Made by a program: the position numbers and the translations under genes | The notes under the pieces: model-generated | The model's input: only the letters and a program-made list of their open reading frames with translations | Told to the model about the DNA's origin: nothing | Databases searched by the model: none | Origin: a virus | Length of the DNA: 64,000 nt | Strand: one strand, 5' to 3' | IMG/VR virus record: IMGVR_UViG_3300031952_002809 | Coordinates: 1 to 64,000 of that record | Shown: one piece after another, positions 16,458 to 60,685 of the stretch | How the letters are laid out: each line of letters begins with the position of its first letter | Position numbering within the stretch: position 1 is the first letter of the stretch

Positions 16458-19400
16458 TTAAATATTTTCAAACCATGTCTTTATCGTTGCATTTAGTTTA
16501 TTCGGATAATCAATCCAAAGACGAATATTATCTTCAAATAGTTGTCGTGGCTCTCGTGTATATGATGATGCACATTTCCCGGTTGAATCCCAATTCTTTC
16601 CAAATACAACCTTCTCGTCAACACCATCAACTTTGTTAATACCTTCGATTGCCCGCCAGCCCATTATTTCTTCATTACCATCGTAAAGTGGCTGAATGTA
16701 TCCAAATATTCTATATGTATTTAATTCATCTTTTGTTAAGTCGTTGCTCGCTGTTTTAAATACTTTCTCAACATTCTTGTATAAAGATTCATCTGTAACT
16801 GGCAGGTACTTCAGAAGATTTTCAGTTATTGGTGTATCTTCCATGCCTATCCAATTACTGATGTACATTGTTTTTCCATGCTTATAAGCAGGAACTTTAC
16901 CGATCTTACTAAACTTATCTTGAGATAATCTATTTAACAGCACATACTGTTTAACTTCTGCTTTGATATCTCTTAGTTCAGCTTCGATTCGTTTCGTTTG
17001 TTCTTCTTCCCACGCTGGTAAATTAATGACATCTGAAACAAATACTACATTATCGTATTCCTTTTTTAAGTATTTGCCAAACTTATTTATGTATCTTTCT
17101 AAGAAAGGACCGAACTCAACTGGGCAGTTCTTGACTTGAATTCCTGCAAGATAGCTATCCTTATATCGTTTGATATTAGGATCAACGCTGTTTCCAAAAT
17201 CTTCATCATCAAAGCCTTCAATGCAGGGTGAGAACATAACGATTTCTCCCATAGGGGATACAATCGATGATAGATTCTTGCCTTTCTTATTGAGTTCTCC
17301 GACAGTATAGCGCAGCCCATCCATAGATTCTGAATTGCTAACTTTTACATTGTATATTCCTTGTTCCTGAAATCCTTTGAGTTGACCATAGCAAAAGCAG
17401 GTATTTGACAAATCCCTGACATGTTTATATAATTTGTCTTTATCCATGGCCATTTTAGAAAGATCAAATATCCACTCTTCAAATTCATTCGAAAGAACGA
17501 TATCTGAATAGTCACGCAGATCATCTCCTTGAGCATAGTGTTGCCGATATATCGGTAGAAAGTTCGTCCAATTATAAGCTGCAAGCTTGCCTTGCACATA
17601 AATATCAACAAGAGATTTAAGAAGGTCTTTCGAGTTCTCAGCAATGCCTTCTTTAAAATTACCATTATACTTTTTCTGAAATGATCTGAGCTTGTTATCA
17701 TATGATGTCATAGCAAAGATAACTTCGGGGGGTACATTGGGGGAACTGATATTTTTGTTCCAGGCATCGGCATTAACAGGAATTATATTATTAGTAAGAT
17801 CAATATCGCTATTCTCTTCTTGAAGAAGAGCAGCGCTTTTTTCCATGAGTTTCTTTTCTTTATCAGCATGCCCTACAAACTCTCTATCTATTGATTCATC
17901 TGGTTTTGGTGCTTCCTCTTCTTTTTCCTTCTTACCAAATTTCAATTTATCTTTGAGTTTTGCCATAGCTCCCATTCCTCCGGGAGGAGGTGTTGCCGGT
18001 CCAGTAACGGCAGGAGTTTGAATATACTCTCCAATCATATCCTCGAATTCTTTTTGGCGACTCTTGTTTCTTAATTCCGATTCAACATCTAAGCCCATCC
18101 CCATCAAAAGTGTTATAGCAGAGATAGGACCTTTTCCTTGGGCATAAACATTGTTGAGGAAGGTTAAGAATTGCTGATCATCACGCATCATAAGTTTCTT
18201 ATGCCACATCATTTTAGGCATAATTAATCTTTGGCGTTTTTCTTCAGCTGAGCGTGTTACTCGATAATGTCCCAGTATTTCCCGAGCGTCACGTTTATAC
18301 CATTCATTCTTTTCAGCCATGATTCTAAAGAATTTGTCCATCATCCAGCGAACTTCGAATAAATCACGCTTTGCTCTGTAGCGAGCTAATTGCATTTGCA
18401 AACCAACGTTAGCTGAATTAAATGTTCCTATGTTTCTTGTTAAGTAGCTATGTGTGTTTTCAACAGTTAAGTTATATACTTTTTTAGTATTCTTAATCGT
18501 TTCTACAGAACGAATCATAGTATATACGTAGTTGTCATCAATCCACGCCTTTTGGCTATTGAATTCTTTTGTAGAGTCAACATTGAATCGAGCGGCATCT
18601 CCCCAAATTATACTCTCAAGGTCGCATGCAAATTTTCCATAAATATCTAACCTATACGTTTTCTTACGCTTGTACTTACTGGTTAAATTTCTTATAGTAT
18701 TGGTTTGAACTACCCAATTAACAGGAAATCCTAATTGAGCAAGGATAAGTTCAACTTGATTAGCTAGTACTTCTGATGTAGTTGTATAGCTTAGTGTATG
18801 CTGACCGGTACGCTTTCTAACTTGATGACAACCATCCCCCTTGAACATACCTTTGATAAGTTCTTTCTTTAACTCTACGGGCCAGCGCATGGCTTCTTCA
18901 GATAGTTTTTTCTGGTGAGAATATTCTCCTGCGTTCTCCTTAAACCAAAGAACAATATCTTTAAATTCTTCCCTATTAGCTGATCTTAATCGCAGTGATC
19001 CTGTTTTTTCTTCAATTTGAATTATAGGTATGCCAATCTTTTCACAGAGTTCCTTCGCTTCTTTTACCAGAGTATCCCTTTCTGTTACATTAAATGTTAA
19101 ATTAATTCCGGTTAATTCTTTTGTTCGAGCATGCTTCGAATAATTACCTTCAGCAAGAAAATATCCAAGCAGCCTAGCTTTGTCAGCAGTTACGTTAGCT
19201 TGTATTTCATTGAACTTTCGTGGGATCATTAAAAAATCCCATGCTTTTATATTCTCAGCGGTTAGTTCCATAATTGGATTATATTCGATAGGAACTCCCA
19301 CTTGATGCTTACGATTTATAGTAGCTCTGTTACAATCTAGTTGTTTCAATAAAGGTCGTTGTACAGGTTGACCGATAGAATGAGCATATGCTTTTCCTGC

Positions 19401-20801
19401 TTTTATTTCTTTACCACAACCACAAGCACATGTTCTTGGCCATGCCCACACAGGCCATTTATGGTTAGTTGTGCATGTTATTTCTTTGTTTCCCCATAAT
19501 TTTATTTTAGTTATGTTTTCTGGTATTCCTTCACACCAGTTATCCGTAACTTTTTGAGACAAACCGTCTTTATCCAATACGAAGTCCCCTTTAGAGACAT
19601 TCTCAATGTTTTTTATACCGCTTGGTGTAGTTATTTGCGTTCCTTCAGTGAAACAGGCGTACGTAGAGGCTCCGGTCAACATCTCTTTCGAAACGCCAAG
19701 GGCTATCATTTTCTTTTCGCTTATTTCTTGCCATTCTTTATCGAGACGCATGACTTTGTCAGCAACAGTCATGTATTCTACTTGAAGTCCGTAGTGATAG
19801 ATAAGGCTGAAATTTGGGTCGAAATTAGCATTTTGAAGCATTTGGGCCAGGGCTCTCTGATGAGATTCATCAGGAATCCATCCCTTTTGTGGGTCACCGA
19901 GTTTGAATATTTTTAATGGATAAATGAAGTTGTCAGCTATTGTGATTTGGGCTTCGCGGAGCTTGTCTTCATACATCAATAATCTGAACAAGCGATTCAG
20001 TAGTGATGTTCCACGAATATCGTAAGGATTGCTTCGACGAGCAATATGAGTCACTTCTCGTGAATCCAACATTATATTCTTTCCGGTAAGAACCCGGCGA
20101 ACGACTTCTTTCGGTAAACGTTTCTTAAGTTGCTGGTCTTCTGGTTTCGTCGAATGAACTATTTTTCTTAATTCATCGTCAGGTCTGAGTTCGATAACTG
20201 ATTCAGAATCAGCAAACGGGGTTGTTCTTACCTCAACAAAGTCGGGGTTGTGTATGATAATGTGACTCCACATTCCCTTAGACTCATCCCAGGGAGTGTG
20301 AATAAACACTTCTCCAATCTTCATGAACTCAAGGTCAATTGCAGGCAACATTGAGAAGAAATTTGTTTTATCCAAACAATCCTCAATATGTCTTTTAATC
20401 ATGGTATCATCAACGATGATTTCTGCTCGAGAATAGGGTAACTCAGCATGAAGTTCAAGAACTGCACCAACGAATTCATCATGATCGAAGAACCACCGGC
20501 ACCATCTATTCTTTTGACGAATATTTCTAGGTAAGTAGATTGCTGTTGTAGTTATTTCAGGATCATAGAAACGGCGTGATGGGTTACGCAATACATTATT
20601 TGAACCCATTCCACCCATTCCAGCCATCATCATCTGATTAAACCCGTAGCCAGTTCCTCCAGTAAACCCAGTAAAGGTTGCTCCCTTCTTATCCATAAGT
20701 TCAGGGTCTGCTTCAGCAAATATGGATCGGGGAACCATATCCTGAAAGTTTTTCATCATATCTGACTGATCGGATTTGATCGGGTTGTCTTTTGTTGTCA
20801 T
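16458..20801 (-). CDS. Portal protein precursor with intein
   Basis: The 1447-aa precursor contains a portal-like N-terminal extein (residues 1-382, with YDIRGTSLLNRLFRLLMYEDKLREAQ and LGVSKEMLTG), a 413-residue intein and a long C-terminal extein. GVSKEMLTG...NVGLQMQ-type sequence is typical of portal proteins, which form the dodecameric DNA channel at one head vertex. Splicing would leave about 1034 residues, long for a portal, so the last 500 residues may be an extra domain fused to it. A hydrophilic, Pro/Gly-rich linker lies near residues 930-990. GGTGA precedes the ATG. It lies within the head cluster as expected. Confidence 0.75.
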   Translation of the reverse strand: MTTKDNPIKSDQSDMMKNFQDMVPRSIFAEADPELMDKKGATFTGFTGGTGYGFNQMMMAGMGGMGSNNVLRNPSRRFYDPEITTTAIYLPRNIRQKNRWCRWFFDHDEFVGAVLELHAELPYSRAEIIVDDTMIKRHIEDCLDKTNFFSMLPAIDLEFMKIGEVFIHTPWDESKGMWSHIIIHNPDFVEVRTTPFADSESVIELRPDDELRKIVHSTKPEDQQLKKRLPKEVVRRVLTGKNIMLDSREVTHIARRSNPYDIRGTSLLNRLFRLLMYEDKLREAQITIADNFIYPLKIFKLGDPQKGWIPDESHQRALAQMLQNANFDPNFSLIYHYGLQVEYMTVADKVMRLDKEWQEISEKKMIALGVSKEMLTGASTYACFTEGTQITTPSGIKNIENVSKGDFVLDKDGLSQKVTDNWCEGIPENITKIKLWGNKEITCTTNHKWPVWAWPRTCACGCGKEIKAGKAYAHSIGQPVQRPLLKQLDCNRATINRKHQVGVPIEYNPIMELTAENIKAWDFLMIPRKFNEIQANVTADKARLLGYFLAEGNYSKHARTKELTGINLTFNVTERDTLVKEAKELCEKIGIPIIQIEEKTGSLRLRSANREEFKDIVLWFKENAGEYSHQKKLSEEAMRWPVELKKELIKGMFKGDGCHQVRKRTGQHTLSYTTTSEVLANQVELILAQLGFPVNWVVQTNTIRNLTSKYKRKKTYRLDIYGKFACDLESIIWGDAARFNVDSTKEFNSQKAWIDDNYVYTMIRSVETIKNTKKVYNLTVENTHSYLTRNIGTFNSANVGLQMQLARYRAKRDLFEVRWMMDKFFRIMAEKNEWYKRDAREILGHYRVTRSAEEKRQRLIMPKMMWHKKLMMRDDQQFLTFLNNVYAQGKGPISAITLLMGMGLDVESELRNKSRQKEFEDMIGEYIQTPAVTGPATPPPGGMGAMAKLKDKLKFGKKEKEEEAPKPDESIDREFVGHADKEKKLMEKSAALLQEENSDIDLTNNIIPVNADAWNKNISSPNVPPEVIFAMTSYDNKLRSFQKKYNGNFKEGIAENSKDLLKSLVDIYVQGKLAAYNWTNFLPIYRQHYAQGDDLRDYSDIVLSNEFEEWIFDLSKMAMDKDKLYKHVRDLSNTCFCYGQLKGFQEQGIYNVKVSNSESMDGLRYTVGELNKKGKNLSSIVSPMGEIVMFSPCIEGFDDEDFGNSVDPNIKRYKDSYLAGIQVKNCPVEFGPFLERYINKFGKYLKKEYDNVVFVSDVINLPAWEEEQTKRIEAELRDIKAEVKQYVLLNRLSQDKFSKIGKVPAYKHGKTMYISNWIGMEDTPITENLLKYLPVTDESLYKNVEKVFKTASNDLTKDELNTYRIFGYIQPLYDGNEEIMGWRAIEGINKVDGVDEKVVFGKNWDSTGKCASSYTREPRQLFEDNIRLWIDYPNKLNATIKTWFENI
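18417..19655 (-). mobile_element. Portal intein with LAGLIDADG endonuclease
   Basis: The element is 413 codons long. It starts at Cys383 (CFTEGTQITTPSG, block A), contains a TTNHKW block B, two LAGLIDADG-like motifs (LLGYFLAEGNYS and LIKGMFKGDGCHQ) and ends GTFN before Ser. The last residue is the required Asn and the +1 residue Ser, but the penultimate residue is Phe instead of the usual His. A zinc-like CACGCG cluster lies after block B. The exteins join as STYA-SANVG. Confidence 0.85.
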
Positions 20802-28138: not shown

Positions 28139-28208
28139 ATTACACAGTGAGGTTCTATGTCTAAGCATGCCCACAGGATATCCCATTCAGTTTTTTATAG
28201 GAGGACAT

Positions 28209-29942
28209 ATGATTACATATGATGATTTTGTAGCCTTTGAAGAAAATTCATATAAATGTATCAAATTAAATCCACAATATGTAGATATAACCGGTGATGT
28301 ACTCGCTGGATTATTACTATCTCAAATAGTTTATTGGAACCTGCCCTCAAAAAAGAACGGTTCAAAACGATGTGGAGACTATTTAATAAAAAAACGAGAA
28401 GATTGGTATGATGAGATCCGGCTGACACCTCGACAAATAGATAGAGTTATGAAAATACTCATAGCAAAAGGAATTGTTGATGTAAAAGTGCAAAAGTCAG
28501 TAATATACAATGGAACACCAGTCCATCATATTCGACTTAATATCGATATCCTAGTAGAATTAATAAATAAGCACCTCCATAGTAGTATGGTAGTTTCAAC
28601 TTCACCAAACGGTGAAGTCGGTATTTCAACGTCACCAAACGGTGAAATCAGCCTTTCGACTTCACCAAACGGTGACGTGACTTCACCAAACGGTGAAGTC
28701 GACTTCACCAAACGGGGAAATCTCTTAATACAGAGATTACCTTCAGAAACTATTACAGAAATTACCCAACCAATCCAACTGGTTGGAACCGGGGGGAACC
28801 CGGTCGTCGATTCAACAAAAGCAGCTGAGGTAATAGCCATACAGGAAGAGAGGCATTCGTTCAGCAATAAAGATAAGTACCTCCCTGGCGACTGCTCTTC
28901 TGTAGCGCAAAACTCTTCTATATCGCATGATATACTTGATTCGATAGAACCCGCATGTTCTGCGTATTTTGGTTCATATTACCCAACAGCTCGATCTTTC
29001 TTTGAGAGCATGACTATAACTTCAGCTGACCATGCAACGAAGTTAGCAACATTACAAAAAACTGTTTTTGAGAAGTATCCCGTAGATATCGTTAAGGTTG
29101 TCATTGCTACAATTCGTCAGTGGGAAAGTCATGGTGACCTGGAATATTATAACCCGGTTTATTTCTTACGTGCCTTGGAGGAGGAAAACGAAATGCAATA
29201 TGTTTACACAAAATTCAAACAATTCTGTATGGAGTATTTTAGTACCAGTGAGGATGCCTTAGAAGTCTACCATTTTTATATTACTGTGTTGAAGAGCAAA
29301 GAAGATATGCGTTCTGCTCATGCAAAAGAAGGAGTTCCACTGCACGAGCGTCGCATAAATAATGTGAAAGCCCTTGTAGAAAAGCAAGGTCTCATTGAAT
29401 TTATAAATATGATACGGCATTATTCTCAGGAATATAAATTAGGAAAACTTCGATGTGCACCTTCGATAGCACGCTTCTCAAATTACTTTGAAACTTATAT
29501 AAAAAACAAATCTAATAAATCAAAACAAAAAACTGCCTCTGCTCCTATTTCTAATAGTGTACCAGAAACTACAATACGAAAAATAGCAGCTACGCCGTAC
29601 GAACGTATTGGATCAAAGTACAATTCAGAAAAATGGGAGTACTGTAATTGGTCATACCAATGCGAATGTGGCGAGATATTTGAATATTGGACAGAAGTGT
29701 GCCCCTCTTGCAGTACTTCTATCAGCCAAGCAGCTTCTAGAGATAAGTTCTTCTCTATGTTTCGTATATGCACTTGTGGCAAAATATTACATGAAACAGA
29801 TAAAACATGTCCACAGTGCAAAATGGAGTTCATTATTGAAACTGCGATAGTTAGACTTGAAAAAAAATTAAAAAATAATGAGAGGGAAAGTAAAGATGAA
29901 CATGGAGCTACTGCACGAGTATGTCAAGACGCGGAGCATTGA
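28209..29942 (+). CDS. Replication initiator (lambda O / replisome-organizer-like) containing the origin
   Basis: The 577-aa product starts with a winged-helix domain typical of phage replisome organizers (LAGLLLSQIVYW..., TPRQIDRVMKILIAKGIVDV, residues about 30-115). A linker follows with four TSPNG(E/D) repeats whose DNA forms the iterons described separately. The middle is helical and may bind the helicase or its loader. The C-terminus has two zinc ribbons (CECG...CPSC and CTCG...CPQC). AGGAGG lies 6 bases before the ATG. It opens the early operon. Role by domain and by analogy with lambda O, which also carries its origin inside the gene. Confidence 0.75.
   Translation: MITYDDFVAFEENSYKCIKLNPQYVDITGDVLAGLLLSQIVYWNLPSKKNGSKRCGDYLIKKREDWYDEIRLTPRQIDRVMKILIAKGIVDVKVQKSVIYNGTPVHHIRLNIDILVELINKHLHSSMVVSTSPNGEVGISTSPNGEISLSTSPNGDVTSPNGEVDFTKRGNLLIQRLPSETITEITQPIQLVGTGGNPVVDSTKAAEVIAIQEERHSFSNKDKYLPGDCSSVAQNSSISHDILDSIEPACSAYFGSYYPTARSFFESMTITSADHATKLATLQKTVFEKYPVDIVKVVIATIRQWESHGDLEYYNPVYFLRALEEENEMQYVYTKFKQFCMEYFSTSEDALEVYHFYITVLKSKEDMRSAHAKEGVPLHERRINNVKALVEKQGLIEFINMIRHYSQEYKLGKLRCAPSIARFSNYFETYIKNKSNKSKQKTASAPISNSVPETTIRKIAATPYERIGSKYNSEKWEYCNWSYQCECGEIFEYWTEVCPSCSTSISQAASRDKFFSMFRICTCGKILHETDKTCPQCKMEFIIETAIVRLEKKLKNNERESKDEHGATARVCQDAEH
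28599..28719. repeat. Five origin iterons within the initiator gene
   Basis: The 16-base unit TTCACCAAACGGTGAA, itself an inverted repeat, occurs at 28601, 28631, 28661, 28682 and 28704. Copies 1 and 4 are perfect; copies 2, 3 and 5 have one change each. Spacings are 30, 30, 21 and 22 bases, close to whole helical turns. The last copy is in a different reading frame from the other four. This is the layout of an iteron-type replication origin. Confidence 0.75.
28766..28804. repeat. Two adjacent stem-loops next to the iterons
   Basis: CCAACCA/TGGTTGG (7-base loop) is followed directly by ACCGGG/CCCGGT (5-base loop). They lie about 50 bases from the last iteron inside the initiator gene and could be part of the origin, for example a primer or loading site, or be accidental. 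Confidence 0.4.
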
Positions 29943-30399
29943 AGTACGCAACAAGATTGTTGAGGAAAATATTCCGCTTGTTAAGTTTGTTGTAACGAAG
30001 GTATACCACAAAGGATTTGGGGAATACGAATACAACGATTTAGTAAATTACGGTGTATTCGGATTAATTAAAGCTGTTGAGCGCTATGATATAACAATGG
30101 GTCTTAAGTTTTCAACATATGCGTATCAAAAAATTTACTATAGTATTATTGATGAATTAAGAAAAGTTGATTGGGTGCCTCGATCAATTCGATACAAAAT
30201 TAAACTGATACAGCAGGATGCTAAAGTTCTAGAATCAACATTTGGTTATGAAGTTGATATTTCATCTTTGGCAAAAGACCATGGTTTGAGTTATCGAGAT
30301 ATGTTTGTCATGGAAGGAACGTATATGACTTCGACAGATTTACCAATTTATTATGCAATAGATAACCGGGAGGAAAAATATGATTATGTTCTTTGCTGA
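29896..30399 (+). CDS. FliA/WhiG-like sigma factor lacking region 4
   Basis: The 167-aa product contains sigma region 2 (NIPLVKFVVTKVY..., YNDLVNYGVFGLIKAVERYD, FSTYAYQKIYYSIIDELRKVDWVPRSIR) and a region-3-like helix pair (about 97-140), both closest in pattern to the flagellar/sporulation FliA-WhiG group. It then stops without the region 4 helix-turn-helix that binds the -35 element. T4 gp55 is a known phage late sigma with the same omission. The start at MNMELLHEY has AGGGA 8 bases upstream and lies inside the initiator gene. It probably binds host RNA polymerase and directs middle or late transcription. Confidence 0.8.
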   Translation: MNMELLHEYVKTRSIEVRNKIVEENIPLVKFVVTKVYHKGFGEYEYNDLVNYGVFGLIKAVERYDITMGLKFSTYAYQKIYYSIIDELRKVDWVPRSIRYKIKLIQQDAKVLESTFGYEVDISSLAKDHGLSYRDMFVMEGTYMTSTDLPIYYAIDNREEKYDYVLC

Positions 30400-44236: not shown

Positions 44237-44803
44237 TTGAAAAAAAACAATGTAATCTTCCTTGGCATCGATCCAAGCTTGACAGGTACGGGGCTTGTTT
44301 TAATTAATGAAGATTATAGCATCTTAGACATGATTAAACTCTTTACCCCCGCAATGAGGGTAGAGAGACTTTTTCACTTACAAAATAAGCTTCTTGAAGT
44401 ACTGAACAAATATACTACCATACGACAAATATGTGTAGAAGGGCCAGCTTTGCGTGAAACAGGTAAAATATTCGATTTGGGGCAGTGGGCAGGAATACTT
44501 TATCTGGAATTATATAAACACGGATTGACCCCTACTATTGTTGCTCCTATGCAATTAAAGAAATATGTTTCCGGTTTAGGAAAAAACCAGGGAAAGCCAG
44601 TTGTTATGCTTGATGTCTTTAAGAACTTTGGGGAAGAGATTAGAGACAATGACCTTGCAGATGCATATGTTTTAGCACGAATAGCTCATGATTTTTATGG
44701 ATTGTGTAATGAAGCTGAACTACCAAATATAAAAAAGTATCAGCTGGAAGTTCTTAATAAATTGTTTGAAGCCAAGAAAGATAAAAGCGGGACGTTACTA
44801 TGA
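44237..44803 (+). CDS. RuvC-like Holliday junction resolvase
   Basis: The 188-aa product has the RNase H-fold motifs of RuvC: GIDPSLTGTG at the N-terminus, VEGP in the middle and NDLADAYVLA at the C-terminus, giving the acidic catalytic set. It cuts four-way junctions formed during recombination. The apparent start is TTG without a clear ribosome site, 13 bases after the previous stop. It overlaps the polymerase start (ATGA). Confidence 0.82.
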   Translation: MKKNNVIFLGIDPSLTGTGLVLINEDYSILDMIKLFTPAMRVERLFHLQNKLLEVLNKYTTIRQICVEGPALRETGKIFDLGQWAGILYLELYKHGLTPTIVAPMQLKKYVSGLGKNQGKPVVMLDVFKNFGEEIRDNDLADAYVLARIAHDFYGLCNEAELPNIKKYQLEVLNKLFEAKKDKSGTLL

Positions 44804-47800
44804 CCAGTTCTACAAAAAATGTGTTTTGTAAGAAATGTAGATTACATGAAGCTGCAAAGCATCCTATGCTTCTTGGAAGGGGGAACCCCTCCGCATCTGT
44901 GTTGCTGTTAGGTGAGGCGCCTGGAAAATCAGAGGATGAGCAAGGACAAGTATTCATAGGTAAGTCAGGCCAACTTCTACAGAACAAAGTAAATCTCGTT
45001 GAACTTGACTGCTTTGTGTCAAATTCAGTGTTGTGCCGTCCATCTGACAAAGCTGGAGGAAATGCTACACCGACAACGACCCAGATAGAGTGTTGCAAAC
45101 CGACAACAATTGATCTTATTCTTACTATGAAACCTCGAGTTGTTGTAGCTCTTGGTGCAATAGCCATGCAGCAATTACTTGATTTTAACCTCAATATGGA
45201 AATTGCTCGAGGCAAGGAATTTTATCATACTGTGTTGGATACGACTATAATACCAACGTATCATCCGGCATATCTTCTTCGAACGAATGATGCTCGATTT
45301 ATGAAAGAATTCACGGATGATCTGGCACTTGCAAAAAGAGTTTCAAACAAGCCCCGCTCTCGTAGAATAGCCTCAGTGCCTGTATCGCATAAGGACAGAT
45401 TTGAAATAGAGAAGTACTTTAATGAACTTAAGCAGTCGGAGTCGCTCTCAGTGGACTTAGAGACAACCTCGCTCAATCCTAAAAAGGGAAGGATAACTGA
45501 CATTTCTTTTTGTAATTCTGCGGGTAAGGGTGTCCATATAGAATGGAAATATCTTACAGAGAGACCTGACCTTTTAAGTTCACTTAAGGAAGTATTGGAA
45601 TCCCCTGCTGAGAAAGTATTTCACAATGCTGACTTTGATATTCGTTTCTTACGCTCAGTTGGGTTCACTGTTCCCGGTAAAATATTTGATACGATGCTTG
45701 CTTATCATACTATGACTATGAGCTATGAGGGGGGAAAGTCGGCATCATTATACAAATTAAAGACAATGGCCTGGTACATGACACAGGAGGGTGGCTATGA
45801 AGATGTCCTTGATGAGCATGGTGGAATTGTTGGAATACAAAAAGAGGACAAGAAAAAAAAGAATGATGTTGAGCAAGGATCGTTGTTTGATTCTGCTGAA
45901 TTAGATACTGTCGCTGGTTTCGATCCAGAGTACAATGCAAGATTAGTATATTGTTCTACATATATTAAAGATACAAAAGAGGCACGGCTCAAAGCACTGG
46001 GACTCGATCGTAAGGCATTTTATTCCGCCATGGACGCCGATGTTACTTTTAGAATCTATAAGTATTTGAAGCAAACTATTGATACATTATATAATTATTC
46101 CTTTTACAATATTACAATGCCTCTGTGTAAGGTTCTTATTAGAATACATGAGAATGGAATTATGGTAGATGTTCCCTACATTGATAAAATGATTGAAGAA
46201 AACAATATTATAGCAGAGTCAGTCAAGACTGACTTTTTCAAAGAAGCTAAATATGAATTTAATCTCAACTCAGTAGATCAGCTACGTGAGTTTATGTATA
46301 CGAAACTAAAACTTCAGGTTAATAATAAATATATTACAACAAAGGGGAAGCGACCTTCTACAGACGAGGAAGCAATTACATTTTTTTCAGAAAAGAAACC
46401 AATCCTAAAAAAGATATTGGAGTATCGTGGTGTTAATAAACAGACATCAACATACTTTGAGGGGTATAAGAAACTTGCGGATGAAATAGGTAGAGTTTAT
46501 CCGAGTTATCTTCAAATAGGAACAGCAACTTCCCGATTATCCGCCCGAGATCCAAACCTTCAAAATATTCCAAAGGACAATCGAGTACGAAATATTATTA
46601 TAGCTTCACCAGGACATAAGATTGTGTTGGCTGACCTTTGCTTGGCTGAGGGAACTTTAATAACAACTCGACGAGGGAATATTCCAATTGAGCAGGTGAC
46701 TACTGACGATTCTGTTAGACAGGAGGATGGCTCCTTTAAGAAAGTAACGAATGTCTTTTTTCGTGGGGTAAAAGAGGTGGTGACACTTACTACAGAATTA
46801 GGATACTCTATAGAGTTAACAAAACATCATAGATTAAGAGTTATCGATGCAGATGGGAATTATGTATGGAAAAGAGTAGGTGAACTTTCTGAATTAGATT
46901 ATGTGGCCATACAACCACACGTAATAAGAAGTAATAAAAGAATAAAATTAAATAGTATTGAATATACTCACTTTAGCAATAAAAAAATAAACAATATTCC
47001 TAAATATATGACTGAAGACTTTTGTGAGTTTTTGGGTTTTATGTGTGGTAATGGGACATTTGGTGTGCCTTACATGGCATTACGTTGGGCTGTTTGCGAT
47101 AAAGATAAAGATACCAATGATTACTTAAAAATACTGTTTAAAAGAATATTTAATGAACGGATAAGAGAATCCACACAATATAGAGGAATATTTGATTCTA
47201 GATTTTGTTCTAAACCGCTAATTAAGTATCTTTTAAATATTGGATTATCTAAAGAAAGGGTTCCTAAATTTTTATTTGAAGCCGATTCTAAATTGATTTG
47301 TGCGTGGCTTAGAGGTTTTTTTGAGTCTGATGGTAGTGTGGGGGATAGAGTATCTTGTTCCTCTTCAAGAAGAACTTTAATAGAGGATATTCAAAAGCTA
47401 CTCTTATCTGTTGGAATAATTTCAAATATATGGCAGTATAAATATGAAAAGCAGGGTAAGCAATTTGAGGCTGATCTTCTTAGTATAAAATCTTATTGGA
47501 CAGATGTTTTTTATAAAAAAATAGGATTCATAGGTAAAAGAAAAAATTCAATCTTAAAAGTATTAGTTGGAAAAACTAAAAAAAACCCAACGTATGGAAG
47601 ACATCCTAATTTAGGAAAAAAATCTAAAAAATATACTTATATAGATGAATTAAAGAATACCCGAAACAGGGGTGGTTTTGTTTCAATAAAAACAGCAAAA
47701 GAATTAAAAATAAAATATCCAGATGTTTATACAGAACTTGGTTTGAATAAGATCACTGATTGGGGGCAGATATATGTTAAATGCAATATAGATGAAAAAA

Positions 47801-48564
47801 TATCGGTTAAAGTTAAGACATATGATATTGAAGTAGAGGAAACTCATTCTTTTATAGCAAATGGTTTTGTTAGCCATAATTCACAGGTCGAGCTACGTAT
47901 TCTGGCAATGATATCTGGTGACACTAATATGATTAATGCCTTTAAATCGGGGCATGACTTTCATACATACACAGCGTGTTCAATGTTTGGTATACCTTTG
48001 GATCAGTTTGATAAGAAAATACCAGAACATGCTAACAAGCGCGATGCGGCAAAAACTATCAACTTCGGAATTGTGTACCAGATGCGGGCAGAGTCTCTCG
48101 CAGAGTCATTAGGTATTTCTTTAGACAAAGCTAAAGCGTTTATGAGGAGTTTTTTTGATGCTTATCCAAGAGTATCAGAATGGGTTACCTACATAAAAGC
48201 ATTTGCTCGGGCGAATGGGTATGTCGAAACTATATATGGGAGAAGAAGGTATTTACCGGATATAAGAAGCAGTGATGATTTTGTTCGGGAGTCTGCCGAG
48301 AGAAGAGCTGTGAACTCACCGATCCAATCGAGCTCGGGGGATGTGTGTTTTACAGGACTTATCCGTTTTCAAGACTGGCTTGATACGAATAATAAGAAAA
48401 CTCGTATCATAGGAACTGTTCACGATAGTATTTTGACAGAAGCTCCTGATGAAGAAGTTGAGGAGATATCTATAATGTTGCCAAAAATAATGACAACAGA
48501 TATTCCTCGAATTACTATCGACATCAAGGCTGACGTTGATATACTCCAGAAATGGAAAAAATAG
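44800..48564 (+). CDS. DNA polymerase (family A) fused to uracil-DNA glycosylase, with intein
   Basis: The 1254-aa precursor has three parts. Residues 1-175 are a family-4-type uracil-DNA glycosylase with CKKC, GEAPGKSEDEQG, NSVLCRP and PTYHPAYLLR. Residues about 205-430 are a 3'-5' exonuclease (DLETTSLNP, Asp219/Glu221). The rest is a PolA-type polymerase with motif A (ADL-SQVELRILA) split by the intein, motif B (KRDAAKTINFGIVY) and motif C (GTVHDSIL, Asp1209). No 5'-3' exonuclease domain is present. The ligated enzyme would have 840 residues. I recall glycosylase-linked polymerases from SPO1-like phages, not checked here. This is the replicative polymerase. Confidence 0.9.
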   Translation: MTSSTKNVFCKKCRLHEAAKHPMLLGRGNPSASVLLLGEAPGKSEDEQGQVFIGKSGQLLQNKVNLVELDCFVSNSVLCRPSDKAGGNATPTTTQIECCKPTTIDLILTMKPRVVVALGAIAMQQLLDFNLNMEIARGKEFYHTVLDTTIIPTYHPAYLLRTNDARFMKEFTDDLALAKRVSNKPRSRRIASVPVSHKDRFEIEKYFNELKQSESLSVDLETTSLNPKKGRITDISFCNSAGKGVHIEWKYLTERPDLLSSLKEVLESPAEKVFHNADFDIRFLRSVGFTVPGKIFDTMLAYHTMTMSYEGGKSASLYKLKTMAWYMTQEGGYEDVLDEHGGIVGIQKEDKKKKNDVEQGSLFDSAELDTVAGFDPEYNARLVYCSTYIKDTKEARLKALGLDRKAFYSAMDADVTFRIYKYLKQTIDTLYNYSFYNITMPLCKVLIRIHENGIMVDVPYIDKMIEENNIIAESVKTDFFKEAKYEFNLNSVDQLREFMYTKLKLQVNNKYITTKGKRPSTDEEAITFFSEKKPILKKILEYRGVNKQTSTYFEGYKKLADEIGRVYPSYLQIGTATSRLSARDPNLQNIPKDNRVRNIIIASPGHKIVLADLCLAEGTLITTRRGNIPIEQVTTDDSVRQEDGSFKKVTNVFFRGVKEVVTLTTELGYSIELTKHHRLRVIDADGNYVWKRVGELSELDYVAIQPHVIRSNKRIKLNSIEYTHFSNKKINNIPKYMTEDFCEFLGFMCGNGTFGVPYMALRWAVCDKDKDTNDYLKILFKRIFNERIRESTQYRGIFDSRFCSKPLIKYLLNIGLSKERVPKFLFEADSKLICAWLRGFFESDGSVGDRVSCSSSRRTLIEDIQKLLLSVGIISNIWQYKYEKQGKQFEADLLSIKSYWTDVFYKKIGFIGKRKNSILKVLVGKTKKNPTYGRHPNLGKKSKKYTYIDELKNTRNRGGFVSIKTAKELKIKYPDVYTELGLNKITDWGQIYVKCNIDEKISVKVKTYDIEVEETHSFIANGFVSHNSQVELRILAMISGDTNMINAFKSGHDFHTYTACSMFGIPLDQFDKKIPEHANKRDAAKTINFGIVYQMRAESLAESLGISLDKAKAFMRSFFDAYPRVSEWVTYIKAFARANGYVETIYGRRRYLPDIRSSDDFVRESAERRAVNSPIQSSSGDVCFTGLIRFQDWLDTNNKKTRIIGTVHDSILTEAPDEEVEEISIMLPKIMTTDIPRITIDIKADVDILQKWKK
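46639..47880 (+). mobile_element. DNA polymerase intein with LAGLIDADG endonuclease
   Basis: This 414-codon element (residues 614-1027) starts with Cys (CLAEGTLITTRRG), carries the TKHHRLRV block B, LAGLIDADG-like motifs FLGFMCGNGTFG and LRGFFESDGSVG, and ends FVSHN before Ser. It interrupts polymerase motif A two residues after the catalytic Asp, so the enzyme is inactive until spliced. Confidence 0.93.
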
Positions 48565-50543: not shown

Positions 50544-52751
50544 ATGGATCTTCCTGATATCGTGAATGAGATAAATAAAAAGAAAAAGACTACTAAAATA
50601 ACAACATTAGATTTAGCTAAATCTTTCAGATTGAAGAGATTTTTTTCAGGATCATTTGGTACGGACTATATTACGGGTGGTGGGTTTGCTTACCGTAGAA
50701 TACAACTATTGTTTGGTGCAAAAAGCTGTATCGATGGGGATTCTTTTTTATGGTATGAGATTTGGAAAAACAATAAGAGGGCTAACAGTAAGGGCGGTAC
50801 TATACGAAATTTGTATAAAAGATTTACTGATGTAACCAAGACAGGTAGAAAACCTATGAGTAACGACTTGGCTACATACTATGTAAAATCAGTTGATGAT
50901 GAAGGATATGTAGTTAGGAATGAGATACTAAATGTGGTAAAAACAGGCAAGAAGAAATGTTTTGAGGTTTCTGTTTCTTCAGGAGAACAGCTTACGTCTA
51001 CAATGGAGCATAAATATTTAACTCCATCTGGATATAAAGAATTAAAGGATTTGAAAGTTGGAGATATTGTTTATGTGAATAGAAATAACAGAGTTAAAGG
51101 CAGGAAAAAGCATACTTCTCGACCAGCTATTTGTGTTAAATATCATCCTTATTTTCCTGTAAAGATAGTTAAGGATAAATATAAAGGGGTTGAAAAAGAT
51201 TACCCCTACTATAGAGGTCAGCAATCAAGAATAGTATATGAAGCGTGCTTAAATGACATGACGTATGATCAATATGTTTCTATACTCAATACTGCATCAA
51301 AGGAAGAAATCAATAAATTAAAATTCTTACCTGTAGATATACATGTTCACCATAAAGATGAAAATTTTTTAAATAATGATATATCAAACCTTGAGCTTAT
51401 TGATCCATCAGAGCATGGGAAATTGCATATGTTGGATAGGCTAAAGAATCTAATGATCATTGTAGATGAGGCTACGATACTGTCGATAGAGCCTGTTGGT
51501 GAAAGGGAAACTTTTGATATTCAATGCGCGTATCCATATAATAACTACATTGCAAATGGAATTGTTGTTCATAATTCAGGTAAGAATGCTTTGCTTAATC
51601 AAACTACAGCATACTTGCAAAGACAATGCAGGTGTTGTCACGGCGTTCACCCTGATTTCTTTAGTGGAGCTCAAGCAAAAGATCAATGGGCATTTATTTT
51701 GCACAGTGTTATGGGTTATGGAATTTGCAAATGTGAGGCACCTCAGCCAAAAAAAGTATTCATTCTTGATTTTGAACGCGCCCTGGCAATCGAAGAGACT
51801 CGCTCTATAAAGATATTGAATATTACCAACAATATAACCGGTGATGATATAGATGAGCTTGATTATAATGATGCTATTGCAACTATGGCTGAATTGCAGG
51901 TATCATCTATTCTTACACCTGAACAAAAAATAGAAATCAAAAAATGTGAAGATTTTATAAAGAATTGTTCTATCAAAGAACAAACTATAAATCAGATAGC
52001 CATAACCGATTATCTTAAAAAATGTGGTGTTGATATAAACCAACTTCTTGTTGCAGATCCTGAAGATACTGAAGAAGGTATTGAGCTTGTTCGAGATATG
52101 ATCCGTGCGAAAGAAGTGGATGCTATTATTTGGGATTCCCTTCAGGCAGCAATACCACGCTATGTAAAAGACCGTGCTGCTGATCAAGCAACAATGGGCG
52201 TTGAGGCTAAGCAAAATGGTTTGCTCATGCGGCATGTTTGTAGTGCTTTCGCTGCTGCAAATCTTTTAGATGAGAGTGAGGCGTATAAGCCAGCATTATT
52301 CATAACAAGTCAGGTTCGTGCTAGTTTGGGTGGGTTTGTTTCTACACCTGATACGTATTCTGGTGGTAACGCTATTCAACACCACATCTCATTAGCTCTT
52401 GAAGTTAAGCGTGAGAAGTTTCTCAAAGAAGACGGAACTGATGCTGAGTTCAAAGATGATTTTTATGGTCAAAGAGTGCGCCTTCGTGCTGATAAAAATA
52501 AACTGAGTTCTCCTGGAGATATGTATGAGTATGAATATTTCTTTAGAGAGGGAGAAAATTTCCCTGTAGGTATTGATTCAGTTGGCGAACTTATCAATCT
52601 TGGTGTAAAGGTTGGATTAATAGATAGAGCTGGTCCATACTACTCAGTAGGAGATAAGAAATTTCAAGGAATGAAAGCGCTGAAGGATGCTTTTAGAGGT
52701 GATAGTAAATTCGCTCAGGAAATTTATATACAATTAATACAGAAGTTATGA
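50544..52751 (+). CDS. RecA/UvsX-like recombinase with intein
   Basis: The 735-aa precursor contains a RecA-family ATPase whose Walker A motif GAKS-SGKN is interrupted by the intein. The C-extein carries KVFILDFERALA, DAIIWDSLQAAIPRY (Walker B), ITSQVRASLGGFVSTPDTYSGGNAIQHHISLALEVKR (L2-like region) and a C-terminal domain. The ligated protein has 452 residues, longer than bacterial RecA. A CRCCHG...CKCE insertion near the Walker A could bind zinc. It performs strand exchange with the SbcCD, SSB and UvsW-like proteins encoded nearby. Confidence 0.88.
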   Translation: MDLPDIVNEINKKKKTTKITTLDLAKSFRLKRFFSGSFGTDYITGGGFAYRRIQLLFGAKSCIDGDSFLWYEIWKNNKRANSKGGTIRNLYKRFTDVTKTGRKPMSNDLATYYVKSVDDEGYVVRNEILNVVKTGKKKCFEVSVSSGEQLTSTMEHKYLTPSGYKELKDLKVGDIVYVNRNNRVKGRKKHTSRPAICVKYHPYFPVKIVKDKYKGVEKDYPYYRGQQSRIVYEACLNDMTYDQYVSILNTASKEEINKLKFLPVDIHVHHKDENFLNNDISNLELIDPSEHGKLHMLDRLKNLMIIVDEATILSIEPVGERETFDIQCAYPYNNYIANGIVVHNSGKNALLNQTTAYLQRQCRCCHGVHPDFFSGAQAKDQWAFILHSVMGYGICKCEAPQPKKVFILDFERALAIEETRSIKILNITNNITGDDIDELDYNDAIATMAELQVSSILTPEQKIEIKKCEDFIKNCSIKEQTINQIAITDYLKKCGVDINQLLVADPEDTEEGIELVRDMIRAKEVDAIIWDSLQAAIPRYVKDRAADQATMGVEAKQNGLLMRHVCSAFAAANLLDESEAYKPALFITSQVRASLGGFVSTPDTYSGGNAIQHHISLALEVKREKFLKEDGTDAEFKDDFYGQRVRLRADKNKLSSPGDMYEYEYFFREGENFPVGIDSVGELINLGVKVGLIDRAGPYYSVGDKKFQGMKALKDAFRGDSKFAQEIYIQLIQKL
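50727..51575 (+). mobile_element. RecA intein with HNH endonuclease
   Basis: This 283-codon element (residues 62-344) starts with Cys (CIDGDSFLWYEIW), has a STMEHKYLTPSG block B, an HNH-type centre (IHVHHKDENFLNNDISNLELI...EHGKLH) and ends IVVHN before Ser. It splits the P-loop between two serines, abolishing ATP binding until spliced. Its HNH nuclease differs from the LAGLIDADG type in the other three inteins. Confidence 0.92.
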
Positions 52752-53948: not shown

Positions 53949-54164
53949 ATGGCGAAGTTACTTACATATAAATGTGCTGGCATTGAATTTGATTTTTACG
54001 ATACAGAAAGAGTTCCGGTTATCAAGTCAGACGTAAAATATTTTATGACACCGGGGCGGCTGAAGGAAGTGTGCGAATGGATGAAGATTCGTACTGTTAC
54101 TTCAGTGACTACTTCTGATCACATGGAAGAATTGATTGCTATAGGATTACTTGGGGAATACTAA
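53949..54164 (+). CDS. Unrecognised small protein (71 aa)
   Basis: The product ends in a helical part that might be a small DNA-binding fold (GRLKEVCEWMKIRTVTSVTTS). Both flanking junctions are tight (2 bases before, a 1-base overlap after), placing it in the loader-primase operon. No family was recognised. Confidence 0.55.
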   Translation: MAKLLTYKCAGIEFDFYDTERVPVIKSDVKYFMTPGRLKEVCEWMKIRTVTSVTTSDHMEELIAIGLLGEY

Positions 54165-55105
54165 TGATCGATGTCGAAAAGATTCTGACTACCCTGGGTA
54201 TTGAATATCGTGGGGGCGGGACAAACAATTTTAAAATATTTTGCATAAATCCTGCACACCAGGAAAAGAAACCATCGATGTATATACATAAAGACAATGG
54301 TCAAATACATTGTTTTGGGTGTAATTATACTGGTTCTTTGTTTACTCTTCTTCGAGTAAGCAAAGGTGTTTATGGATTAGAAGCATTACTCTACCTTCAA
54401 AAGTTTGCTGTCGGTGGTCAGACTGAGAGTGAGGTACGAAAATCTTTGGAGGAGATAATACAATCACGCTCAGCTGAAAAATCCATTATTCGATACGCGT
54501 CTGTCGAGTTACCTGAGCATAGACTGCTTACAAACCATTTGTATCTCGATAAGCGCGGTATTACTTCTGCTGAGATACAAAATTGGGGAATGGCTGTTAT
54601 TACTGGTGGAAGAAACATTGGTTGGATTCTAATTCCCATCTACCAAGATGGTATCCTTCGAAATTATTTTATGCGAAATAGTTTTGGAGAAGGAAAATTG
54701 TATGGAAACTATCCAAGAAAAGACTTGTTGGCGGGATTAGATTATGCTTTAGACCTATCTCAGCCACTTTATATTTCTGAGGGTATTTTTGATTCTCTTG
54801 CTATTGGACGTACGGGTGTTCAATCAGTCGCTTGCCTGTCAAATAGACTATTACCCGAACAACTCGAGCGGTTAAAGCTATACAAAAAAATAGTTATTGT
54901 TCCTGATACCGACTCACGAGGCATCGATCTCGTTGAGAGTGCTGGCCCACTTATACATAATAGAGAAGTCGTTGTTTGTAAATTACCATCACATAAGAAG
55001 GATGCTGCAGAGTGTACCCATACTGAAGTAAAGCAGGCTTTACTTGAAGAAATACCATGGAATATCTATATGATTGAGAAGAAAATTATTTCAAAATTTA
55101 ATTGA
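54164..55105 (+). CDS. DNA primase (DnaG-type, zinc finger plus TOPRIM)
   Basis: The 313-aa product has a CHC2-type zinc finger (CINPAHQEKKPSM...HCFGC, residues about 27-55) and a TOPRIM domain (YISEGIFDSLAI and VIVPDTDSRGID). It is shorter than bacterial DnaG and lacks the C-terminal helicase-binding domain. It makes RNA primers with the phage DnaB-type helicase. GGGGA precedes the ATG. Confidence 0.85.
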   Translation: MIDVEKILTTLGIEYRGGGTNNFKIFCINPAHQEKKPSMYIHKDNGQIHCFGCNYTGSLFTLLRVSKGVYGLEALLYLQKFAVGGQTESEVRKSLEEIIQSRSAEKSIIRYASVELPEHRLLTNHLYLDKRGITSAEIQNWGMAVITGGRNIGWILIPIYQDGILRNYFMRNSFGEGKLYGNYPRKDLLAGLDYALDLSQPLYISEGIFDSLAIGRTGVQSVACLSNRLLPEQLERLKLYKKIVIVPDTDSRGIDLVESAGPLIHNREVVVCKLPSHKKDAAECTHTEVKQALLEEIPWNIYMIEKKIISKFN

Positions 55106-57045: not shown

Positions 57046-57279
57046 ATGACAAAACAGAAACATATATACGTAAAAGACGAGACTGAGTTTGATGAACTAC
57101 AAACAGAGATAAAGATTCTCTGGTATCAGAAATATGGAGAGTCTTTATCAAATTCTGCTATACTCGTCAAAGCATATGAGAATTTAAGAGATAGCTTATC
57201 TGGCAGGGGCGACAGAACAGCATATGATATTAAGAGACAAAATATATATAAATACTGCAGAACTGGGATACAAGATTAG
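57046..57279 (+). CDS. Small basic protein coupled to the tubulin gene (77 aa)
   Basis: Its ATG directly follows the tubulin stop. The N-terminus HIYVKDETEFDELQTEIKILWYQKYGESLSNSAILVKAYENL resembles a ribbon-helix-helix DNA-binding protein. In plasmid TubZ systems a small DNA-binding adaptor (TubR) is encoded beside TubZ; by analogy this could link DNA to the filament, but no homology to TubR is visible. It overlaps the next gene. Confidence 0.5.
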   Translation: MTKQKHIYVKDETEFDELQTEIKILWYQKYGESLSNSAILVKAYENLRDSLSGRGDRTAYDIKRQNIYKYCRTGIQD

Positions 57280-59680
57280 CAATTTATGCGAACTATTTAC
57301 ATATAAGAATCCAGAGATTTTTCATAAAAAGCGACTCAAATTATCTATTCGTAATGTACCACCATACTTGTATCACTATAAATTAGCGGATACAGATGGT
57401 AAGAAAATTCTGCAGATACCTCGCGGTGGATTACCGCGTGTTATAGCTTTCTACAAACAGAATAATCTTCCCTTTAGACTTATCGATCAGCGCATCGAAT
57501 GTTTATCTATAGATGTGCATCTTATTGATACTACACTGGATAAGCACCAAGAACGAGTGGTTAATGTTCTCCTTCAAAACGATGGGGGTCTTATTGAAGT
57601 AAGCCCAGGCGGAGGTAAGACCATAAGTATGCTCGGTTTGATATCCATACTCAAACAGCCCACACTTATTGTTACACATGAACATCGCTTGAGTGCTCAA
57701 TGGATGACTGAGATACGTAATCGGTTGGGTGGTACTTATACTCTTGGGAAGTACGATGGTGATGTCAAAGAGGATGGGGATATCGTTGTTGGAATCATAA
57801 ATAGTTTATACAATCTCTATCAAGAAAACCCAGGTTTCTTTGACAAATTTGGTACTATAATAGTGGATGAGTGTCTTGATCCAGATACTGTTATAACTGT
57901 TCCTACAGGAATAAAGAAGCTTCGTGATATTAAAGTTGGAGATACTGTTATAACCCCAACCGGAGCAGCTTTGGTAAAAAGAATTTGGACTACAACAAAA
58001 GAAGCTTTTAAATATAAAATGACTAATGGTAATTATTTAATAACATCTAAAGAACACATAGTGCATACTTATAGAGATTTTAATACTGGGTACGCAAGGG
58101 GTACTGAGAACAAACAAATACAAAATTGTAGCGGTCTCTTGTTTTTAAAAGATATTCCCAAAGAGCGAATAATATCTGAATTTGATCTTATTAACTATTT
58201 GTACGGTTGGTTTATTGGGGATGGTACATGTGATAATAGCTATATAAACTTTTCTTTTAGAAAGAAAGAAAAAATAGAATGCTTTGAAAATGCTTTTTCT
58301 GGCTATGATATGTTTAATAAATTTGGTAATTCACGGGGGGACTCTGTTTATCGTCTAAAATCTGTTTATGAGGAGCAATTACACGACCGGTTTGATATTT
58401 ACCACGGAAGAAAATCTGTGGATATGCGGCTTCCTGACTTTATTTATGCTACAACAGATATTTCTTTTATTCGTGGTTTATTTGAAGCTGATGGCTGTCG
58501 GCATGCTGATACTGGTACACAAAAACAAAATTCTATAGAACTCTCTCTTATATTAAAAAATGTAATTTATCAAGTTGCAGATATGCTAAGGGGGATGGGT
58601 ATCTATAATACAGTTACAGGGCTCACACACAGTAACTCCCAAGCAAGTTTAGTGTACAGAGTATCTATTCCTTCTTTCTATATAAATACCTTTAATGAAA
58701 AAATAGGATGGTTTGGTTATAAAAATATAATTATGAATCCTCGAAAAATAAATAGAACTCCTTTCACTGCTCTTTCTATAAAATCAGTAGAACCTATGGG
58801 TAATCGTGATCTAATAGATATTGAATTAGAGGATGAAAATAAGCTATTTATAGCAAATGGTATAATTGTGCATAATTGCCATCATTTACCTGCTGAAATG
58901 TTTTTATCTGTTTTGAACAACATGCCAGCCAAATATAGAATTGGGGTAACAGGAACGGTTAAACGAAAGGATCAGAAGGAATTACTTACTTTTGATGTTT
59001 TGGGAAAAATACTTATAAAATTTGATGCTTCTGATTTGAAACATCGAATAACAACCTTTGATTATCGTATAGTAAACACCAATATTCGTATGGAAATACC
59101 AACTATTTTTCGTTGGACCGGACAAAAAAGAGAAGATGTCCTTAATATGACAGAATTGCTAACTAAACTTGTCGAAAATAATGATAGGAACGCTATTATA
59201 CTCAAGGAGGCGATTGACCTTATTCAGACTGGATACTTCCCATTGATACTGAGTGATCGAGTGCAGCATAATGAATATTTGCATGAACAACTTACTGCTT
59301 TGGGTATTAAAACTGTTCTGATGATTGGTAAAACTCGAAAGAAAACAAACTGGGATGTGACTAGAAATGATCAAACAATTCAATGTATTGTAGCCAATTC
59401 CAAAATAGCATCTGAAGGATTGGATCTTCCCAGATTATCTGCGTTAATATTAACATGCCCATCTACAAATGTGCATAAGTTGAAACAGCAGATAGGAAGG
59501 ATTCGAAGAGTTTGTGAGGGTAAACCTCTGCCAATGGTCGTAGATATCTGTGATAATTTAGCGTGTACTCGTTCTGAGGATGATCCTAATTATTTATTAC
59601 GGCATACCGCTAGAACGAGAATAAGATTTTATGAGAAATTAAAAAATGAATATGACGATGTTGAGGATACCGATTCGTAA
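57224..59680 (+). CDS. UvsW-like superfamily 2 helicase with intein
   Basis: The 818-aa precursor has Walker A SPGGGKT (Lys132), IVTHEHRLSAQW, a DECH box split by the intein after Glu216, GVTGTVKRKD (motif III), and a C-terminal helicase lobe with ASEGLDLPRLSALI and QQIGRIRR. The ligated protein has 483 residues, the size of T4 UvsW. Such helicases unwind R-loops and branched DNA. The ATG lies inside the preceding small gene and has a poor ribosome site. Confidence 0.85.
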   Translation: MILRDKIYINTAELGYKISNLCELFTYKNPEIFHKKRLKLSIRNVPPYLYHYKLADTDGKKILQIPRGGLPRVIAFYKQNNLPFRLIDQRIECLSIDVHLIDTTLDKHQERVVNVLLQNDGGLIEVSPGGGKTISMLGLISILKQPTLIVTHEHRLSAQWMTEIRNRLGGTYTLGKYDGDVKEDGDIVVGIINSLYNLYQENPGFFDKFGTIIVDECLDPDTVITVPTGIKKLRDIKVGDTVITPTGAALVKRIWTTTKEAFKYKMTNGNYLITSKEHIVHTYRDFNTGYARGTENKQIQNCSGLLFLKDIPKERIISEFDLINYLYGWFIGDGTCDNSYINFSFRKKEKIECFENAFSGYDMFNKFGNSRGDSVYRLKSVYEEQLHDRFDIYHGRKSVDMRLPDFIYATTDISFIRGLFEADGCRHADTGTQKQNSIELSLILKNVIYQVADMLRGMGIYNTVTGLTHSNSQASLVYRVSIPSFYINTFNEKIGWFGYKNIIMNPRKINRTPFTALSIKSVEPMGNRDLIDIELEDENKLFIANGIIVHNCHHLPAEMFLSVLNNMPAKYRIGVTGTVKRKDQKELLTFDVLGKILIKFDASDLKHRITTFDYRIVNTNIRMEIPTIFRWTGQKREDVLNMTELLTKLVENNDRNAIILKEAIDLIQTGYFPLILSDRVQHNEYLHEQLTALGIKTVLMIGKTRKKTNWDVTRNDQTIQCIVANSKIASEGLDLPRLSALILTCPSTNVHKLKQQIGRIRRVCEGKPLPMVVDICDNLACTRSEDDPNYLLRHTARTRIRFYEKLKNEYDDVEDTDS
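57872..58876 (+). mobile_element. Helicase intein with LAGLIDADG endonuclease
   Basis: This 335-codon element (residues 217-551) starts CLDPDTVITVPTG, has a TSKEHIVHT block B, LAGLIDADG-like motifs LYGWFIGDGTCD and IRGLFEADGCRH, and ends IIVHN before Cys. It lies between Glu and Cys of the DECH box, so the ATPase is inactive until spliced. Confidence 0.93.
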
Positions 59681-60483: not shown

Positions 60484-60685
60484 ACATATACATGTTGCAA
60501 TACCAGAGCATGTGTATTTTCATTTTAAACATAAATGTTCTTTTTTTGAATTGTCTCGCTCGGATGTTTTAGTAACATTGATTGAGAAATTTATTGATGG
60601 CGATTTTGATACAGATTTCGGCTTAGAGGTGTTTTTACATGCGGGACATCGGGATACTGACGCATCCAATAGACAAAGAAAATGA
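60470..60685 (+). CDS. Small ribbon-helix-helix-like protein (71 aa)
   Basis: The sequence IKHIHVAIPEHVYFHFKHKC...LSRSDVLVTLIEKFIDGDF has the strand-helix-helix plan. AAGGATG lies upstream and the gene overlaps both neighbours, which shows tight coupling to the sigma factor and helicase genes. Probably DNA-binding; target unknown. Confidence 0.55.
   Translation: MDSIKHIHVAIPEHVYFHFKHKCSFFELSRSDVLVTLIEKFIDGDFDTDFGLEVFLHAGHRDTDASNRQRK

Follow-up and report, generated by a model that had tools for sequence, protein, structure and literature searches.

A probable iteron-type replication origin inside the initiator gene of an uncultured phage

The 28.60–28.77-kb stretch of the window is very probably a theta-type replication origin carried inside the initiator gene of the phage. 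The window is the whole stretch of DNA analysed, the first 64,000 nucleotides of a 121,553-bp contig (IMG/VR virus record IMGVR_UViG_3300031952_002809). For this uncultured 120-kb phage, the sequence by itself gives a likely origin at single-base resolution. The repeats within the gene are strongly supported as DNA-level sites that the initiator would bind. The initiator ORF contains five plus-strand copies of the palindromic 16-mer TTCACCAAACGGTGAA with zero to one mismatch each. Copies 1 (28601–28616) and 4 (28682–28697) are exact, and copies 2 (28631–28646), 3 (28661–28676) and 5 (28704–28719) have one mismatch. Each copy is a dyad whose 6-bp arms flank a spacer of 4 bases (TTCACC-AAAC-GGTGAA), and the arms of copy 4 reach 9 bp (GACTTCACC-AAAC-GGTGAAGTC, 28679–28700). 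The positions and the spacings of 30, 30, 21 and 22 bp agree with the preliminary description. At up to three mismatches, 0.52 matches to the 16-mer are expected by chance in the window, and five copies were obtained in none of 100 shuffles. A search of the whole contig at the same threshold showed no sixth copy.

The initiator gene (28209–29942, plus strand) encodes 577 residues from a likely start at ATG 28209, preceded by the ribosome-binding site GGAGG at 28200–28204; the reading frame is open from 28167. It is the first plus-strand gene beside a divergent strand switch (27.5/28.2 kb). Its 3' end is overlapped by about 65 bp by a gene for a small sigma-70 region-2-like protein (29878–30399, plus strand), an overlap that may link replication and late transcription. 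The protein consists of a winged helix, a disordered linker, a helical region and a C-terminal Cys-rich, zinc-ribbon-like part. Profile searches matched PHROGs 6493 (DnaD-like helicase loader, E 1.4e-11), 9773 (O-like initiator, 7e-10) and 428 (4e-6) and, weakly, 270; no Pfam family matched the protein or its domain. The winged-helix DNA-binding domain (28212–28580, plus strand) is predicted by AlphaFold2 with a pLDDT of 90.2 and a pTM of 0.85. Comparison of this model with PDB folds showed generic winged helices as the closest, all of them weak and none below E 1e-3, with the weak resemblances including the DnaD N-terminal domain (2v79) and RepA_N initiators (4pql/5kbj/4pt7). The predicted recognition helix TPRQIDRVMKILI (28425–28463, plus strand) corresponds to helix H73-85 of the model, in which R (28431), D (28440) and R (28443) are the presumed specificity positions. 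In the full-length model, numbered from 28200, residues 142–240 have very low confidence, with a pLDDT below 50 in the linker, and the C-terminal part, which has no Pfam match, is helical and Cys-rich at low confidence. The iterons span codons 134–174 in this numbering and therefore encode the start of the disordered linker. As modelled, the DNA-binding domain thus lies upstream of the repeats and the linker lies over them.

Translation confirmed the reported reading of the repeats: copies 1, 2 and 4 are read as TSPNGE and copy 3 as TSPNGD, whereas a one-base shift puts copy 5 into another frame, where it reads FTKRGN. Four copies share one frame, as the spacings of 30, 30 and 21 bp between them are divisible by three. 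This shared frame would also be expected if selection acted on the repeated peptide TSPNG(E/D) and the DNA repeat arose secondarily, from codon conservation or recent duplication, and the 30-bp units 1–3 do resemble diverged tandem duplicates. Since the other four share a frame, only copy 5 speaks directly against peptide selection within the window. However, comparison of the three 30-bp units showed that the differences concentrate in the flanks (15/42) rather than in the 16-bp core (4/48). The gene was further recoded synonymously 20,000 times with the codon usage of the phage, and copies were counted at one mismatch or fewer. None of the recodings had five copies and two had four; in 10 of the 20,000, the out-of-frame FTKRGN segment was no more than one mismatch away from the core.

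Relatives of the initiator carry the argument further. Single-protein searches of viral contigs found no close relatives, and further members of family A were found through an alignment with Brevibacillus and Nostoc plasmid proteins. Family A comprises 41 distinct ORFs, the window included, and occurs in phages and plasmids of Bacillota and Cyanobacteria. Related domains were found in phages of Stenotrophomonas, Staphylococcus and Exiguobacterium, in plasmids of Brevibacillus, Halobacillus, Nostoc and Calothrix, and also in contigs of genomes and viruses, among them Natroniella, Chlorogloeopsis and many Nostoc. Among 25 of its domains, PHROG 6493 was matched by all, 9773 by 24 and 428 by 20. 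A significant repeat lies behind the winged helix in 33 of the 41 ORFs; the repeat lag is 23 bp in 24 of these 33, and in 29 of them the copies are mutually out of frame. The nearest relative found (L299, with a 54% identical domain) lacks TSPNGE yet has 23-bp repeats in rotating frames, read as RIDERSK, ELPKGEN and NLPKVKT. In the large plasmids of Nostoc and Calothrix (L276 and L277), the initiator homologue, annotated as hypothetical, lies directly upstream of the dnaB helicase gene, suggesting that it is a plasmid replication initiator.

A second phage initiator family, family B, was reached from matches to the 16-mer and enlarged by protein searches; comparison of profiles relates it to family A (95% probability, E 3e-8). 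Isolated 16-mer matches in other viral contigs were mostly single chance occurrences or unrelated coding, such as a WD-repeat-like protein with 'FSPNGE', and only matches clustered in initiator-like ORFs were kept. A scan with a two-dyad pattern was discarded, as most of the contigs found were without the initiator families. When the 109 unique ORFs of family B were tested de novo for triple dyads, with codon-shuffled linkers as the null, about half of them (52/109) passed. The spacing is exactly 22+22 bp in 44 of the 52 passing ORFs, and the dyads use all three frames in 46 of them, read for example as ISPNGEM, LTKRLN and HQTV. The dyad sequence itself is variable, with about 20 different half-sites. 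Because the dyads are 21–23 bp apart and usually rotate through the frames, the peptides of the relatives differ while the DNA repeat stays, and the window is a mild case of this rotation. The preliminary description had held that the DNA and not the peptide is kept, and had proposed to look for conserved iterons at the same place with changed peptides in related phages; both families show them. The opposite pattern, a TSPNGE peptide kept and its DNA repeat lost, was not seen among the family A and B relatives examined. Thus, selection on the peptide is already largely refuted and is very unlikely to account for the array.

The half-sites of family B vary together with the protein. In 29 representatives (<90% identical) and with overall domain divergence removed, recognition-helix columns 61–66 correlate with the half-site at a partial r of 0.66 (reached in 0/5000 permutations), the highest value of all six-column windows; per-column partial correlations were not used because invariant columns give undefined values. 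Among pairs less than 60% identical, the nearest neighbour by helix recovers the half-site in 53% of cases vs. 21% for the nearest neighbour by whole domain. The helix types RQx(E/Q)(R/K), SQxET, RQIRK, KQxR(T/N/I), HQIGR and RQIEI go with half-sites CACC, CCGA, GACA, GCCC, TGCA and CACA, respectively. Nearly all half-sites with C as the first of their last four bases go with E, Q or D at position 65, and those with G there go with R; positions 62, 65 and 66, which co-vary in family B, are homologous to the three presumed specificity positions of the window helix. This co-variation is evidence, drawn from the sequences, that this helix reads these sites. The window helix TPRQIDR (RQIDR) falls in the class that predicts CACC, and its half-site is CACC, a match that is weak on its own because it is a single case in the commonest class (9/29). 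In family A the comparison is anecdotal: RQIDR (the window) and RQADR (L169) occur with CACC and RQIDG of an Exiguobacterium phage with CACC/CACG, and members with an aromatic residue in mid-helix (RQYDR, KQFDR) have other, often odd-centred dyads. A Halobacillus plasmid (L275) and Bacillus taeanensis (L295) have the helix PANYRT and a quite different dyad, TGTTGAATCAACA. These comparisons also bear on the reading of the array as a functionless recent tandem duplication or as an RNA hairpin or attenuator array. Every copy is able to form a hairpin, and minisatellite-like arrays presumably occur in linkers. However, the dyads of the relatives lie at the same place with different bases matched to the helix of the protein, and their spacing stays at two turns of DNA, a constancy for which an RNA hairpin would have no need, making this reading extremely unlikely.

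The DNA directly behind the iterons is AT-rich. The region 28720–28766 is 70% AT and G-poor and contains a putative unwinding arm of three degenerate 12–13-bp repeats (28730–28765, plus strand): ACAGAGATTAC at 28730, TCAGAAACTAT at 28743 and ACAGAAATTAC at 28755. The instability of this element is only modest, about the weakest 10–12% of 48-bp stretches. In many members of family A, tandem 12-bp repeats of ACAGAGAYTAC stand directly behind the iterons. They keep one frame in 59 of 65 matches; the window and L314 are among the few in which the frame is shifted. The Glu codons inside the element are GAG in 55 of 56 cases, compared with 425 of 1195 (36%) elsewhere in the same ORFs, a bias whose nominal p of 6e-23 is overstated because the sequences are related. 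The tandem element and the unusual GAG use were observed in L276, L275, L190, L278, L300 and L314, which include Staphylococcus phages as well as plasmids from Halobacillus and Nostoc. A comparable 12-bp repeat (CAGATAYTAA-like) occurs in family B, usually beginning 7 bp past the last dyad arm (27/44 linkers), where selection on the peptide may also act. Helicase-loading factors of the host or the phage might read the 12-bp element of both families, much as with the DnaA-trios of B. subtilis or the DnaD recognition element. TACT (TnnT) recurs every 12 bp in the elements of many relatives; since the window copies do not keep TACT, this resemblance is offered as an idea only.

The cumulative GC skew of the contig is lowest at 29061, ~0.4 kb from the iterons, and highest at 98679. 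The minimum supports a bidirectional origin without being independent proof: because the strand switch (27.5/28.2 kb) nearly coincides with it, the skew cannot separate an origin from transcription direction. The GC-skew check proposed in the preliminary description placed a minimum near the iterons, at nearly the same place as the switch in gene strand. The dyads could instead be initiator-binding sites for regulation (auto-repression, copy-number handcuffing or partition), with the origin elsewhere, and a two-turn spacing would also fit a repressor or partition array. However, the dyads lie ~400 bp inside the gene, away from the promoter, and no copy of the 16-mer occurs upstream or elsewhere in the contig. 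The AT-rich element after the dyads is conserved in relatives, and the proven origins of lambda, SPP1 and pSK41 show the same layout. A purely regulatory role with a distant origin is therefore unlikely.

For the in-gene origin, we infer an activity in which dimers of the initiator winged helix would bind the five CACC-N4-GGTG dyads, whose spacing is about two (21–22 bp) or three (30 bp) turns of the helix, and so build a nucleoprotein complex. The AT-rich 12-bp repeats next to it would melt, and the C-terminal part of the initiator would recruit the helicase, probably the DnaB-like protein of the phage at 60.6 kb, together with the primase. The gene could accommodate such sites, as their translation product is part of a disordered linker in which the exact sequence is of little consequence. 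The contig encodes its own DnaB-like replicative helicase (60639–62111, plus strand; PHROG 19, E 1e-46), primase (54164–55105, plus strand; PHROG 47, E 2.7e-36) and polymerase; the helicase is presumably the partner loaded at the origin and the primase a downstream partner. The polymerase (44800–48564, plus strand) is a DNA polymerase A fused to a 3'-5' exonuclease and, at its N-terminus, to a uracil-DNA-glycosylase-like domain; a LAGLIDADG intein (residues ~614–1027) interrupts the protein. Four inteins were observed in the 64-kb window, this one included; the others are in a RecA/UvsX-like protein with HNH (50544–52751, plus strand), a ResIII helicase with LAGLIDADG (57224–59680, plus strand) and a 1447-residue protein with Hint and LAGLIDADG domains (16458–20801, minus strand).

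Taken together, families A and B have close to an even chance of sharing one design, in which the initiator gene would store both a few residues of the recognition helix and a matching dyad, repeated in rotating frames along the disordered linker, and the fixed 12-bp element behind them would be a common landing or unwinding signal on single-stranded DNA. If so, new specificities would evolve by concerted change of the helix and of several sites within one gene. The relatives provide a testable rule by which the iteron of an initiator is predicted from its recognition helix, and origins in viral contigs may be sought as frame-rotating dyads in initiator linkers. The 12-bp element is conserved behind iterons that differ widely among these Bacillota and Cyanobacteria phages and plasmids, which raises the question of its reader. 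A search confined to the open-access literature found no description of the frame rotation, the co-variation or the 12-bp element, and nothing relevant on SPNGE or a described recognition code.

The preliminary description had likened the layout to the lambda origin, and the anatomy agrees. The lambda origin lies inside gene O with inverted-repeat iterons and a strand-asymmetric AT-rich arm (PMC4488673, PMC7466680). In the window, near-identical repeats likewise lie inside the initiator's own ORF, as dyads at about whole-turn spacing and with an adjacent AT-rich arm, the instability of which is only modest. Both genes carry their own iterons in mid-gene, as inverted repeats around an A-rich centre with the AT-rich arm after them. 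The annotated iterons of lambda are in frames 0, 2, 2 and 1; a shifted frame is therefore neither special to the window phage nor new. In contrast to the window, lambda has four 18–19-bp iterons of the type ATCCCTCAAAACGAGGGA, and its O protein belongs to PHROGs 277 and 2365. PHROG matches did not place the window protein in either, and only remote PHROGs such as 9773 and 678 are common to both. The oriL of SPP1 lies inside gene 38 with origin-binding repeats and an AT-rich unwinding element (PMC6316719), the same published layout of an origin inside the gene of its origin-binding protein. The 12-bp element of the window corresponds by position to the AT-rich arm of lambda and the unwinding element of SPP1. 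SPP1 has a second origin, oriR, ~13 kb away, whereas no second site was found in the window contig. In the RepA_N initiator of pSK41, a DnaD-like winged helix binds Rep boxes in the part of rep that encodes a dispensable linker, and RepA_N iterons are semi-palindromic with a poly-A centre (PMC5703833, PMC7145576). The window has the same plan, with iterons in the linker-coding part of the initiator gene, which raised the possibility of RepA_N membership. This was rejected: the window protein has no match to PF06970, none of 25 family A members matched RepA_N in Pfam, and PDB sequence searches gave no support. The fold similarity to RepA_N is weak (TM 0.43–0.45) and the C-terminal part differs. 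An N-terminal winged helix of DnaD type is suggested by the PHROG 6493 match common to the family A members, with a weak fold match to 2v79 (E 0.015). Proteins of PHROGs 6493, 9773 and 428 are annotated as helicase loaders or initiators, and the search output for these PHROGs held no mention of in-gene iterons. The window origin would thus be an in-gene origin of the lambda, SPP1 and RepA_N type, ordinary in kind, to which the family-wide frame rotation, the co-variation of helix and iteron and the shared 12-bp element are added.
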